The translations under genes and the position numbers were made by a program. From Tetradesmus obliquus (Eukaryota; Chlorophyta; Chlorophyceae; Sphaeropleales; Scenedesmaceae), in the NCBI GenBank assembly GCA_030272155.1, contig CP126194.1, forward strand, positions 4,641,501-4,705,500: DNA of 64,000 nucleotides, written 5' to 3'. Every line of letters starts with the position of its first letter. Within the stretch, counting starts at the first letter, position 1. Shown piece after piece: positions 42,066 through 49,601 of this stretch. The notes beneath the pieces are model-generated. The model searched no databases. It saw only the letters and a list, made by a program, of their open reading frames with translations, and had not been told where the DNA came from.

Positions 42066-45000
42066 ATGCATACTCTGCAGAAATCCAGTGCGTTGCAGCA
42101 GGCTGTGGTGGGCAGTAGGCGTGGTAGCACAGCTGTTCCGCAGGCATTAGCAGGGCCCCGAGCTTGGGGGCGTGCTGGCAGCAGGCTGCAGACATTCACA
42201 CCTTCAGCGCCCAGAAGCACGCCACAGCTCCACCACCAGCAGCAGCACACAAAGCCCATGGCCTCACCAGTGGTAGCAGCTGCATCTGGCGGAGCGGCAG
42301 CAGCAGCGGAGGGCAACACAGTGTACATCCCCATCAACGAGCTTAAGGAGCTGTGCACAAAGTCTCTGAGCACGCTGGGCTACAGCACTGAGGAGACTGC
42401 AGTGCTGCTGGATGTGAGTACTGCTGCAGCTGCCCTGCAGCCTGCTGCAGGCAGCCACAACCCTAGTTCCAGCAGAGGTGCAGCAGGCATTGCTTGCTCT
42501 GCATGTACATGACTGCTGAGTACAAACACGCAGAGTAGTATGAGTGTCAGCTGATATTCATGTGCTGTAGGCTATTGGCGTGAGCTCAGCAGTCTGATGT
42601 GAGCTCAGCTGATTCATTCTGGTAGTGCATGTGGGCCTGACCAGCTGGAAGTAGTTTCCTACTAGCATCAGCAGATAGCAATAGAGCAAACAACTGAGTA
42701 GCAGCTAGAAGCCAGCTGGGTAGCCATGAGACTGCGTGGTACGCCAGCGTTGCTGTTGCAGGCAAGCACAGACTATAGGCACACGTTGAGCTACTGTGAC
42801 CCTTCAAGCGTCTCTTGAGCTACTGTGACCCCTCAAGCGGCTCTTAACGGACACCGAGTCACTGCAAGCACAGACAATTGGCACACGTTGTGACCTCGTG
42901 CTCCCCGCAGTCGCCCTCCCAGCCCATCCCAACCAAAGTTAATGCCGTTCTGTGACTATTCTGCTTGCAGGTCCTGCTGTACGCACAGCTGCGCGGCAAC
43001 AACCAGGGCATCATCAAGATCACCACCGGCGGCATGAACCGCGCAGCTGCAGCAGCGCCCATAGCAGTCGAGCGCGAGACGCGGCTCTCCGCGCTGCTCA
43101 ACGGCAACGCGCAGGCCGGCATGCTGGTGCTGCACCGCGCGATGACCATGGCAGTTGAGAAAGCCAAGTCCGCAGGCTTTGGCATTGTGGGCACCAACAA
43201 CACCAGCACATCAACAGGAGCGCTGGGCTACTATGCTGAGCAGGTGGCGAAGCAGGGCCTGATTGGCATCGTGTTTGCGCAGTCGCCCGAGTTTGTGGCA
43301 CCCCATGGAGCGAAGCAGGCCATCTTTGGCACCAACCCCATCGCTATCGGCATTCCAGCAGAGAAGGTACGCTGTCAGATGCAGCAGCAGCAGCAGCAGC
43401 GGTGGCATGGGAGCTCATGAGGGCAGCACGGGCAGCCGCAAGAGCACCAGCATGCTGGCAGCGGTGTGTGTAACCCAGCAGCAGCTGCGGAACACAGTTT
43501 GGCAGCTGTGATGATGACAACACTCCCTGGCCAGGCTGCTCAAGCTGCTGGCTGGGCAGGAGCTGCCTTTTCATGCAGCGGCCCTGCAAGAACAGCAGGG
43601 CTCAATACCCATGCAGCACCTTATTTCACCTTGTGCCGCTGGCCCTGGCATGCTGTACCACAGCACACCAGGAGCTGTCAACGCAGTCTGTCATTATGAG
43701 TCTGCCTGCTACCTGCTACCATGGTCACGTGCTGCCTACATGCCGAGGATCGCAGTTGCGCACGCGCAGAGAGGCTGGTTACAGGGGGAATGCATCTTAC
43801 CACCTGAAGGTGTAGAACTCGCCTCACTTTCAGTGCCTCACACTGCAGCTGATGCCTGCCTGCCTCACACACCACGCTTGCAGGGCCCTGTGGTAATGGA
43901 CATGGCCACTGCAGCATATGCCTGGTTCGGCCTGCTGGAGGCCAAGACTGCGGGCCGGCCCATCCCTGGTGACGTGGCGCTGAATGCACAGGGGCAGCCC
44001 ACCACTGACCCGAACGAGGTGCTGTCGGGCGGGGCCATCCGCGTGTTTGACCGGTGAGGCGGCAGGCGGGGCGTTTGTGTTTAGGCTGCCAACTTGAGTG
44101 AATGGAACCCCCAAGCGTACAAAAAACAGGAGCTGCCGTGGCTTGCCCTTGTGCATCGGTTTGCGACCCTTTTGGTTGTCTACTTCTTCAGCGGCTGCCG
44201 CCTTCCCTGCTGTGTCCTCCATGTGATTTCTCGCCTCTTTCACCTGCGCCAGGAGCCACAAGGGCAGCAACCTGGCGCTGATGGTGGAGCTGCTGCCATG
44301 CGTTGCCCCGGTTACTGGCGACCTTTCAATTCACTGAAGCTTCATTTCTGCTCTGACGTCTGTGTTACTCTGCTCCCACAGCAGCCACAAGGGCAGCAAC
44401 CTGGCGCTGATAATGGAGCTGCTGCCATGCCTTACCCTGGTTATTGGTGACCTTTCAATTAACTGAAGCCTTATTCTTGCGCTGACGCCTGTGTTGTTCT
44501 GCTCCCGCAGGAGCCACAAGGGCAGCAACCTGGCGCTGATGGTGGAGCTGCTGGCGGGCCCGCTGGTGGGCGCTGCTGTGGCCGACAAGCTGGAGCAGCG
44601 CAACTGGGGCAACCTGCTGCTGGCAGTTGACCCGGAGCTGCTGGGCGACGCGGAGAGCATCCGCGCACGCACACAGGTGGGTAGTTGGTTCAGCGGCGGG
44701 GTGAGGGTTGCTGCTGCTGCTGCTGCTGCTGCTGGTGTACCCGGAGCTGCTGGGCAATGGGAGACCATCCGCGCATGGACACAGGTGAGTGGTTGGTTCA
44801 AAGCGGGCGGGGTGAGCGTTGCTGGCCGCTACCGTTGCTGCTGGCAGTTGACCTGATGTTTCTGGCACCAACATGCGCCTACCGCCCCTGCTTCTCGCGT
44901 GCGGTGCCGCAGGTGGTGCTGGACCGCGTGAAGGGCACAGAGCAACTGCAAGGCGTGGTTGAGATCCTGCTGCCCTGCTTGTTACTGACATGTTATTTTG

Positions 45001-45961
45001 TGGCACGCTGCTGCAGGTGGTGCTGGACCGCGTGAAGGGCGCGGCGGCTGCCTGGCCTGGACGAGATCCTGCTGCCCTGCTTGTTATTTACATGTTACAC
45101 TGCGGCACGCTGCTGCAGGTGGTGCTGGACCGCGCGAAGGGCGCGGAGCGGCTGCCTGGCGTGGAAGTCATCCTGCTGCCCTGCTTGTTACTATCATGTC
45201 AGTTTGTGACGCGCTGCTGCAGGTGGTGTTGGACCGCGTGAAGGGCGCGGAGCGGCTGCCTGGCGTGGACGAGATCCTGCTGCCCAGCGAGCGCGGCAAC
45301 AGGGTGGCAGCGCAGCGCGCCAGCAGCGGCATGGTGCCCATTGAGGCCAACCTGTACCACAACCTCAAGGTGGGCTGCATGTGTGAGCTATGCAAGCAGT
45401 GGTGGAGGAAATCTGCATTTGGTATGTGTGGGTTTGACTTGGAGTTTGTGTGGTGAGATGTTACACTTGAGCCAACACTTCATAAGCAAAACTGTATGTT
45501 AATCTGGCTTGACATCACATATCATGCTCACACCCCTGCACGGCATGGCTGCATTGCAGGTCATGGCCTCCAAGGCAGACGCAGGCAGCACTGGCAAGGC
45601 AGCAGCAGCAGGCGCACCCGCCTCCAAGATGAAGCTGGAGACGCTGCTGTTGCACCCTGCAGCCAGCTCGGTCACAGACCCGTATGATGCAAGCGGGCCG
45701 CCGCTGTACCAGACCGCTACCTTTGGCCAGCCGAGTGCGACTGAGGGTGGCCAGTTTGACTACACGCGCAGCGGCAACCCCACACGCACCATGCTCGAAG
45801 AGCAGGTGGGCACGGGCTTATGCCTAAATCGGCTTTAATGCATCAGTTCTCGATGCAGCCTGTTACAGTGATGATATTCAGCCATGCCTTGCATGCTCCT
45901 GCTGGCACATCCAGCACAAATGCACGACTACCTCTGTCTCACGCATGTGCCGTGCTGCTTC

Positions 45962-45994
<33 letters not shown>

Positions 45995-48965
45995 AGTGGG
46001 CGGCGCTGGAGGGCGGCTGCCGGGCACTGGCCTTCACCTCTGGCATGGCCTCCCTGGCAGTTGTCACCAAGCTGGTGTCTGTTGGCGGCCACATTGTGGC
46101 TGGCGATGACATTTATGGGGGCACCAGCCGCCTGCTGGCGTCCGTGGTGCCTGCAGGAGGTGTGAGCGTGAGCAACGTGGACATGACAGACATCAGGTGA
46201 GTTGTTAGGCTAACATTGTTTGCAAAAAAAGATTGCATTTTGCATGTAAGCGCGCACGTAAGCATCGAGCGACGGGGTCGGCGATCGGTGAATCCAATCA
46301 ATCAAGATAGTGTCAGTCAAGAAGTTGTTGCAGCGGTGGCAGGGTGGGCCACGTGATCACGGAGCCCATGGTGCGGCAAGCTGCACGTGCCCAGCTGGCA
46401 GCCTGCTTGGGCAGCTCGCCAGCGAGGCAGCATACATTGTGCAAGTGGGCTGCAAGTGTTGCTGGAATTATGGTTGTGGCGCCTGCAGGCTGACCTGGCT
46501 GGCGGGCAGCAGTGGGTTGCCCTTGATCTTGGAGACCAGATCACTTTGCTGAACTCACAATGCACTGTGTGCCTGTTGCTGCTGCTGCTGCTGCTGCAGT
46601 GCTGTGAAGGCTGCCATCATCCCCGGCAAGACGCAGCTGGTGATGGTGGAGTCCCCAACCAATCCACGCATGCAGGTGGGCCTGCTGCTGCTGCCTCAGC
46701 AGCCCAACAAATCTGTGTTCAACATGTCCCGTGCTTGGCGCCCTGTTTCCGGCAGCGAAGCCTGCATCTTGCTGCATAGGACGTAGGACTAGATAATACA
46801 TGTAGTACAGCTGGCGCCACCGCTGCACAGATCACACGCGGGCTTCACACCCTCTGCTTGCAGCTGCATGCCGCAGCACCATCACCTCATGATCCTCACT
46901 CATCTTCGGCTGCGCTGCTTCTTATCGTCCTCGCAACCAACCAACCGCATCAACCCACCAATCACGCAGATCTGCGACATTAAGGCCATAGCAGCGGCAG
47001 CACACGCCGCCGGCGCGCTGGTGTGCGTGGACAACTCGTTCCTCACACCGCTCTACCAGCGGCCCCTGGACCTGGGTGCTGACATCAGCATGACCTCCGG
47101 CACAAAGTATGTTGGCGGCCACGGGGACACCACGCTGGGCCTGCTGGCAGTGAAGGATGCGGAGCTAGGGAAGAAGCTGTACTTCCTGCAGAACGCGGAA
47201 GGCGCGGGGCTGGCGCCGATGGACTGCTGGCTGGCGCTGCGCGGGCTCAAGACGGTGAGGCTGTAGGGCATGGGCCTGGGTTGCGTCTTGTGTGTGTGAG
47301 GGAGCGCGTGGTGAGGGCTGGTGGCTGCGTCTTCGTGTCTGTGATGCGGCTGGCTGGCGCTGCGCAGGCTCAAGACGGTGAGGCAGAGAGGGGTGTGGGG
47401 TGGGCGTGGCTGCTTGCGTGTGGGTGGTGGTGTCTTCTGTGGGCTGGCTCTGCGTGGGCTCAAGGCGGTGAGGCTGTGAGGGGTGGGTGATGGGCGTGGT
47501 TGCTTGCGTGTGGGTGGCTGTGTGTTCTGTGGGCTGGCGCTGCGCGGGCTCAAGACGACGAGACTGTGAGGGGTGGGTGGTGGGCGTGGATGCTTGCGTG
47601 TGGGTGGTTGTGTGTTCTGTGAGGCTGTGCGTTGCGTGTGTGCTTCTTCTGTTCTGTGAGGCTGTGAAGGGCGGGCGTTACTTGCATGTTGCGTGTGGGT
47701 GGTTGTGTGTTGTGTGATGCTGGGCACTTAGCGCTGCCTGGGCTCTAGACGGTAAGTGGGGCATGGGCCTGGCTTGCGACTTGCGTGTGTTTGAGGGAGC
47801 GCGTGGTGAGCGCTGATCGCTGCGTCTTTGTCTGTATGATGAGGCTGGGCCGTGTGTGTGGGGCTTCAGTGACGCTGTGTGTGTTGTCGCTGGTGATGAG
47901 GCTCATTTCTTAAACAAGGTTTGGCTGGCCAAAACAGTCTGACTGGCCTGTTAAGTCAGGCACTGCCGCAGAGCGGCAGGTGGTGTCGCCTGCTGGTGTG
48001 CTTACAAGCATGCTGGCCAACATGCTGACTGACATGCCGACTGACTCCCTTTCTGCTGCTGCTGCTGCTGCTGCTGCTGCAGATGTCGCTGCGCATGGAG
48101 CGCAGCATCGCCAACGCGGAGAAGATTGCGGAGTTCCTGGCGGGTCACTCGCTGGTGCGTAAGCTCAACTATGCGGGCCGCCCGCAGCACCCGGGCGCCG
48201 CCGTGCACGCAGCACAGGCCACCAGCGGTGGCGCCATGATCAGCTTTGAGACAGGTGGGTGTCTGCAGCGCAAGGTTTTGGTAACAAGTTTGCAGCGGAA
48301 GGCCGCACGGGGTGGGCTGCTGGATTGTGCTTTCCTACTGCTTGCTAGTTGCTTCGCTGTTGAGCCGAGCATCAGCCGGGGGTAGCTGCACTAACTCGTT
48401 GAGATGTGCAGCTTATCGTTCGGTCAGCGCATGGGATCAATTCACGCCTCAGCATTCAATCTGCATCCGCTGTTTTCCCATTCTTGTTTTTGTGCATACA
48501 GGCGACCTGGAGGCCAGCAAGATGATTGTGGAGCTTACAAAGCTCTACAAGGTGACCGTATCTTTTGGCAACGTGATCAGCCTCATCAGCCTGCCTTGCT
48601 TCATGAGCCATGCCAGCATCCCTGCAGAGGTGCGTGCAGTGCGAGGGCTGCCGGACGATCTGGTGCGCATTTCCGTGGGCATTGAGGATGCAGCAGACCT
48701 CATTGCAGACCTGCAGCAGGCGATGGATGCAGCGCTGGCAGACAAGCGGCGTCGTGAGGCGTCCAGTAGCAGCAGCAGTGGGTCAGCAAGCGGGGGCGCG
48801 AGCGGGAGCAGCGGTGTGAACGGGAACGGGAATGGGGCGGAGGGAGCAGGGACGGCGGCGGTGCTGGCGGCGGCGCACAGCCGGGAGCAGGAGCTGGTGC
48901 AGCGGATACAGCAGCTGGAGTCGCAGCTTGCGGGGCTGAACGGGCAGGTCAGCAAGCCTGTATAG
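42066..48965 (+). CDS. fusion: Ldh2-type malate/L-lactate dehydrogenase domain + cystathionine beta-lyase domain
   Basis: Eleven exons close to 889 residues: 42066-42413, 42971-43366, 43884-44053, 44511-44676, 45223-45369, 45560-45805, 45997-46196, 46600-46675, 46970-47254, 48083-48254, 48502-48965. Residues 1 to about 60 (MHTLQKSSALQQAVVGSRRG onward) look like a plastid transit peptide. About 80-409 match the Ldh2 NAD(P)H oxidoreductase family (GIVGTNNTSTSTGALGYYA, FGTNPIAIGIP, GQPTTDP, KGSNLALMVELLAGP). After a roughly 25-residue linker, about 430-860 are cystathionine beta-lyase (PLYQTATFGQPSATEGGQFD, YTRSGNPTR, TSGMAS, SPTNPR, PLP Lys629 in SGTKYVGGHGD, PCFMSHASIPAEVR). This enzyme splits cystathionine to homocysteine, pyruvate and ammonia in methionine synthesis. 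A Ser/Gly tail with a short coiled coil ends it. The joining intron (45370-45559) is 190 bp and phase 0. Alternative: two overlapping genes, the second starting at ATG 45563 without a transit peptide. Confidence 0.85.
42789..42845. repeat. about 29-bp tandem duplication in intron 1 of Ldh2-CBL
   Basis: GAGCTACTGTGACCC-TTCAAGCG-CTCTT appears twice in a row with small differences, within the first intron. Confidence 0.7.
44253..44552 (+). repeat. 129-bp tandem array of acceptor + exon-4 start (3 copies)
   Basis: The start of Ldh2 exon 4 (AGCCACAAGGGCAGCAACCT, then GGCGCTGAT...GAGCTGCTG) occurs at 44253, 44382 and 44511, exactly 129 bp apart, each preceded by a CAG acceptor. Only the third continues into conserved coding sequence; the first two turn into CCATGC and intron-like sequence. 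Confidence 0.93.
44632..44850 (+). repeat. 109-bp duplication of exon-4 end + donor
   Basis: CCGGAGCTGCTGGGC...ATCCGCGCA...ACACAG|GTG occurs at 44632 and 44741. The second copy keeps a strong donor (ACACAG|GTGAGT) but has no acceptor in an equivalent place. A (CTG)n run links them. Confidence 0.9.
44913..45290 (+). repeat. 102-104-bp tandem array of acceptor + exon-5 start (4 copies)
   Basis: GTGGTGCTGGACCGCGTGAA and following bases (GGGC...GAGATCCTGCTGCCC) occur at 44913, 45017, 45119 and 45223. Each follows CCGCAG or CTGCTGCAG. The copies differ by substitutions and a one-base change of length in copy 2. Only the fourth continues into the SERGNRVAAQRA segment. Confidence 0.95.
47229..47770 (+). 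repeat. array of exon-9 end + donor copies (4-5) in a G+T-rich intron
   Basis: CTGGCGCTGCGCGGGCTCAA-GACG|GTGAGG, the end of lyase exon 9, recurs near 47349, 47442 and 47531, with a weaker copy near 47727. Spacing is about 120, 93 and 89 bp. Between them are repeated GTGTGGGTGG-type stretches. Three of the copies keep a usable GTGAGG or GTAAGT donor. Confidence 0.88.
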
Positions 48966-49601
48966 GCAGCTGCAGCGTGTGTTCTGCTGGTGGGGGTGAG
49001 GGGATTGTGGTGCATATTATGCGTTGTGGCTGCTGTTGTAATGAAACTCTGACGGGGCAGAGCATCGCGTTGCACTGCTGCAATGTGGTGCTTTTGGGCT
49101 GACTGCATTGGCTCAATGTGGCGTGTGGCAAGTTCTGGTGCAGGGTGGCAGTTGTTTGTGATATTTGATGGGTCTGCAGGATGTGCTTTTATTCTGACTG
49201 TACAGAAAAGTGGCAACGGCACAGCAACCAAGCCTTCAGGATTGTGTTACTTGCAACGCGAATGTACATGTATGACCATGTGGCTGCCACCCTTGCAGCA
49301 AAGCACAGTGGGCGATGTACTGCGTCAGCTCTGTGTCGCTCAGCTATATGCAATGCACCACGCTGCTGGGTGGCGTACTGCAGAGTTGTATGTACAGCAG
49401 GGTGGATGCAGGACAGCAAGGCCTCAAGGTTTCAGGCCCAGCTGGGCTCGTGATGTCGCTTGCGACAGCCCTTGTCACAATGGTTGTGTTGCATTGCGTA
49501 GCGTTGTGTGCGCATCAGACCCTGCTGAGCTGCTTGCAGCTTCCTACCATTGTTTGACCAGGTGTCTGTGGTGGCGTATGCTGCATGAACACACCGTGTA
49601 A
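48966..49601 (+). other. T+G-rich 3' region of Ldh2-CBL with TGTAA motifs
   Basis: The plus strand stays T+G-rich after the stop codon. TGTAA occurs at 49037-49041 (72 nt after the stop) and at 49597-49601, exactly where the composition flips. Either could be the poly(A) signal. Confidence 0.5.

Follow-up and report, generated by a model that had tools for sequence, protein, structure and literature searches.

Does the interval from 42066 to 48965 on the plus strand of our window (the whole 64,000-nucleotide stretch of Tetradesmus obliquus DNA that was analyzed) encode one protein that joins an Ldh2-type oxidoreductase to a cystathionine beta-lyase (CBL) or two separate proteins, and what might such a pairing do? 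We resolved the interval into 11 exons that give one frame of 2670 nt, i.e., 889 residues and one stop codon, with a calculated mass of 91.8 kDa; all ten introns are GT-AG, and the reading frame is continuous across the exons. The original prediction of eleven phase-consistent exons, 890 codons, and a single stop was thus borne out, as was its claim of two complete enzyme domains: Ldh_2 (PF02615) matches residues 89–409 at 282.2 bits (cut-off 38.8) along profile positions 2–333 of 333, and Cys_Met_Meta_PP (PF01053) matches residues 437–810 at 435.6 bits along profile positions 2–380 of 381. Two full-length domains at such scores are not explicable by chance. Exon 1 (42066..42413) carries the N-terminus and the onset of the Ldh2 domain; residues 1–81 lack D and E, are enriched in A, S, Q, and R, and by this composition appear transit-like, which fits, in composition only, the transit peptide that had been proposed for the front domain. 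The Ldh2 domain continues through exons 2 (42971..43366), 3 (43884..44053), 4 (44511..44676), and 5 (45223..45369). CBL begins in exon 6 (45560..45805) and extends through exons 7 (45997..46196), 8 (46600..46675), 9 (46970..47254), and 10 (48083..48254) into exon 11 (48502..48965), which also holds the C-terminal tail and the stop codon. The pentamer TGTAA, which we take to be the green-algal poly(A) signal, lies at 49037..49041 (plus strand), 72 nt past the stop codon.

The best PDB match of the front half is 2x06, and compared with the L-sulfolactate dehydrogenase-like enzymes (2x06, AllD, DpkA, YiaK) the algal domain shows family likeness over its full length and shares four cofactor residues, but it lacks both family histidines. 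In the AllD paper, H44 and H116 are termed invariant in the family, the mutants H116A and R48A are inactive and H44A is strongly impaired, and the conserved cofactor-site residues include T156, P158, D174, K224, and G306 (PMC3527362). Our 45-row alignment places Q, S, and K at H44, H116, and R48 in the alga and in two bacterial proteins, L013 and L017. Exon 2 of the algal gene encodes RGNNQGIIKITTGG, with Q at the H44 site, and NNTSTSTG, with S at the H116 site; one extra residue near H116 makes the exact aligned partner unsure, and the motif there holds no His. T156, P158, D174, and K224 are retained in all three proteins (in the alga, the cofactor Asp lies in DMAT of exon 3 and the cofactor Lys in SHK of exon 4), and at G306 the alga has S where both bacterial proteins have G, so that four of the five listed cofactor-site residues are kept in the alga. 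Among the 41 other rows, a nonrandom set of 30 loci of best matches, the weak locus L015, and 10 plasmid matches picked by eye from 55 listed, H44 is kept in 38/41 and H116 in 37/41, and both are absent in 3/41 (two from Paraburkholderia, one from Pseudonocardia), all three being plasmid genes from the ten picked by eye. Because of these three further rows, the invariance of the histidines fails for the wider family. Five NCBIfam Ldh2 equivalog models matched the front half (sulfolactate dehydrogenase, two ureidoglycolate dehydrogenases, malate/lactate/ureidoglycolate dehydrogenase, and 3-dehydro-L-gulonate 2-dehydrogenase), and none of the five reached its cut-off (best: 218.3 vs. 500 bits).

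The nearest bacterial protein that we found is L013, encoded by an Opitutales MAG. Its 55% identity to the algal front half over the whole domain suggests that selection has maintained the algal domain; L017, from a genome of the same order, is 80% identical to L013. Both read N-[NS]-Q-G-I-I-K and S-T-G at the two histidine sites, as the alga does, and both are free-standing, whereas the algal domain is joined to CBL. In a maximum-likelihood tree, the six His-less rows are split off by one branch (support 97/93, present in 98% of 200 bootstrap trees), and the alga, L013, and L017 join at 100/100; several rows are long-branched, and groupings that involve them may be spurious. The loss of the histidines looks old on this tree, and the His-less branch is bacterial as well as algal. 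The closest bacterial branch also looks rare: at E 1e-60, a search of 288 Verrucomicrobiota genomes recovered just one, its own source genome; at 1e-50, it appeared in two of 372 genomes of the order of L013, and it accounted for one of 60 pattern matches in the genome collection, the exact eight-residue patterns reaching close relatives only. An AlphaFold2 model of L013 (12 rows) had a mean pLDDT of 51.9 and was set aside. No relative was found on virus contigs with the two-sequence Ldh2 alignment (0/148 pattern matches), with CBL (0/23), or with the algal Ldh2 (0/23), and a broader alignment returned 13 Ldh2-type loci (L074–L086) among 52 matches. These loci of uncultivated viruses retain both histidines in 11 of the 11 aligned; L081 lies outside the alignment, and the virus contig of L086 has stop codons within the matched stretch.

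The rear half reaches the equivalog cut-off of the eukaryotic CBL model TIGR01329 narrowly (491.8 vs. 487.5 bits). Its best PDB match is the CBL structure 1ibj, presumably the Arabidopsis enzyme, and the two sequences agree in 215 of the 365 aligned columns (59% identity). Residues Y127, R129, Y181, D253, and K278 of 1ibj, whose roles we take as given, are all retained in the alga, the PLP lysine (K278) lying in SGTK of exon 9. CBL converts cystathionine to homocysteine, pyruvate, and ammonia. The algal enzyme differs from 1ibj in its place behind an Ldh2-type domain and in a tail of 79 residues past the lyase domain, which is Ser/Gly/Asn-rich and ends in a run that looks coiled-coil-like by eye. 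The nucleotides encoding this region (48726–48965) fall outside the 1ibj alignment, and the 1ibj chain itself stops six residues past the aligned part.

Both halves were sought throughout the assembly (104,662,953 bases in 17 contigs). All three PF02615 matches lie within this gene. PF01053 gave 16 matches: this gene accounts for five, a single cluster on C3 for another five, C7 for four, and C14 for one, and the last lies elsewhere on C3. With CBL itself as query, there were 12 matches, six from this gene at 69–97% identity and six from other places at 29–40%. The C3 cluster best matches the plant-type cystathionine gamma-synthase structure 1i41, which we take to be a plant enzyme, and an 89-residue piece on C7 best matches gamma-lyases. 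The CBL gene is therefore apparently single in the assembly; the check for separate copies raised with the original prediction returned no further Ldh_2 match and no other close CBL match. Two smaller traces were recorded, a short PLP-lyase-like piece at bases 765–1046 of C14 (L008, L021), about 38–42% like this CBL and at most 1.1 kb from the contig end, and a weak PF01053 match at C3:5246054–5246275 on the minus strand (25.2 bits, below the family cut-off).

Whether the two halves form one chain depends on intron 5 (45370..45559), the interval between the domains, which measures exactly the predicted 190 bp. Splicing of this intron is the step of the gene model that we infer. Read unspliced from exon 5, it has a codon score of –23.5 and meets a stop codon at 45454–45456, and exon 6 is coding-like from its opening codons, with a score of +20.0 over its initial 81 nt (385 intron windows: maximum 4.4; 96 coding windows: median 12.5). 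On a crude splice matrix trained on nine sites from the other introns, the intron 5 donor ranks 7 of 423 GT sites, and its acceptor ranks 162 of 479 AG sites, the poorest acceptor rank among the ten introns. TGTAA occurs at 43469, 46245, and 49037 and nowhere within 45370–45559, a weak support for fusion because only 0.6 per kb are expected. Exon 5 closes with NLYHNLK and, after the splice, exon 6 opens with VMAS; L013 ends in NLYEDLKKMAVV and L017 in NLYNELCRMAEV, so that a C-terminal NLYxxLxxMA is common to the alga and both bacteria. Exon 6 thus seems to hold the last Ldh2 residues (VMA, with M-A as in the two bacterial relatives), followed by an Ala/Gly/Ser/Lys linker and the CBL onset, and homology of M-A would place the fusion point within exon 6. 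At the same C-terminal place in three other His-less proteins, L064 has M-S and two have no M. The two-residue match may be a coincidence because the second codon in exon 6 is the ATG at 45563, which has the favorable context gtcATGgcc, and MAS resembles a protein start. In two other green algae, colinear monocistronic genes have median spacings of 3415 and 2518 nt (PMC11291117), and a spacing of 190 bp argues against independent genes by that comparison. Fusion is the best reading of these sequence features, one gene giving one protein, with a probability of about 0.6; the original prediction of a fusion is supported by the coding signal that reaches the splice site, the M-A in exon 6, the lack of TGTAA in the gap, and the short spacing.

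Two separate genes lying head to tail, with Ldh2 stopping at the unspliced 45454–45456 and CBL beginning at the ATG at 45563 or at 45524, would account for the weak acceptor of intron 5, for the G at –3 and the G at +4 of the ATG at 45563 with Ala-Ser after it, and for the frame upstream of 45563, which scores –10.1 and is not coding-like, as expected of a 5′-UTR. The coding score alone cannot separate fusion from a CBL gene that starts at 45563. The stronger argument for fusion is that Ldh2 has no plausible end of its own: its tail would consist of 28 intron-like codons, unlike the ends of both bacterial relatives. Two genes would also leave CBL without a long transit-like peptide, would lack TGTAA in the gap (a weak point at the expected frequency), and would lie far closer together than the medians of thousands of bases just cited, and we regard them as improbable. 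Slightly less probable is that both products are made, the fusion and, driven by another promoter within intron 4 or intron 5, a CBL-only protein that starts at 45563; the favorable start context is the sole point for this reading. A bicistronic mRNA, with intron 5 retained and CBL made by leaky scanning, belongs to a known green-algal class in which two same-strand coding regions are likewise close together (median inter-ORF spacing in Chlamydomonas: 183 nt; PMC11291117), about as here (~190 bp). The locus departs from that class in having a continuous frame if intron 5 is spliced, in its lack of ATG depletion (observed/expected 1.17 within ORF 1 and 1.32 as far as the start of CBL, vs. medians of 0.49 and 0.43 before ORF 2 in the known cases given there), and in an ORF 1 of >1.2 kb rather than medians of 357 and 291 nt (PMC11291117); ORF 1 also starts with A at –3. 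We consider this the least credible account, with very little probability.

If the fusion is real, the Ldh2 domain could still be a dead enzyme that is retained as a cofactor sensor or as a scaffold for CBL assembly. Both family histidines are absent, G306 is also altered in the alga, and the mutations H116A and R48A abolish AllD activity (PMC3527362); against this, R48 is exchanged for Lys rather than lost, and bacterial genes whose searched flanks gave no CBL match have lost these histidines too. As a tblastn query (E 1 or better), the algal CBL found no match in the 13.0 kb around L013 or the 6.6 kb of L018, the two closest bacterial genes, nor in the surroundings of the three plasmid genes without the histidines (L087–L089), and because of this the His-less bacterial proteins are unlikely to be CBL scaffolds. 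A dead front half seems rather unlikely to us. The surroundings of the plasmid genes variously contain AMP-binding proteins, MFS transporters, flavin reductases, or an amidohydrolase, and offer no usable hint of function. The original prediction also had the front half reducing 2-keto acids or cyclic imines. Reduction of pyruvate or its imine may occur, but the front half is no ordinary Ldh2 enzyme, having lost both histidines, so family membership is insufficient to establish it; since the front half belongs to the His-less branch, ordinary 2-keto-acid reduction is not to be assumed.

Taken as a fusion, the gene would give a protein of ~92 kDa made up of a transit-like peptide, the His-less Ldh2-type domain, a linker of ~20 residues, CBL, and the coiled-coil-like tail. 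Both halves would enter the plastid via the one transit peptide, if its composition is a guide, and the CBL half would cleave cystathionine by the established chemistry. The front half would most likely bind NAD(P)H because four cofactor-binding residues are kept. We lean slightly toward a front half that is a live oxidoreductase with altered acid-base chemistry, tethered to CBL for shared plastid import and joint assembly. That its substrate would be the 2-oxo or 2-imino acid product of CBL is a guess and a doubtful one. The fuller proposal, in which a His-less oxidoreductase tied to the only CBL of the alga would use the CBL product or its imine and so couple plastid methionine synthesis to NAD(P)H, we hold to be unlikely.

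Fused proteins frequently cooperate in function. Among the literature matches listed, which covered few subscription papers and supplements, there was no description of an Ldh2-CBL fusion, and no paper with both PF02615 and PF01053 was found in the literature searched; a case already described or annotated may exist. If made as a single chain, the protein would hint at an unrecognized partner step of green-algal methionine synthesis, and it draws attention to an Ldh2-type branch without the histidines that underlie the proposed mechanism of the family. Because the assembly yielded a single copy of each half, removing or separating one of them should give a clean read-out.

Several introns of this gene contain tandem repeats. 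Repeats of 129, 108, and 104 bp, at 44250–44553, 44614–44844, and 44905–45285, respectively, duplicate the borders of exons 4 and 5 together with their splice sites, placing the copies in introns 3 and 4 (borders read by eye), so that partial decoy exons sit next to the true ones. Intron 9 holds a further tandem repeat (90 bp; 47352–47636), which duplicates the 3′ edge of exon 9 together with its donor site.
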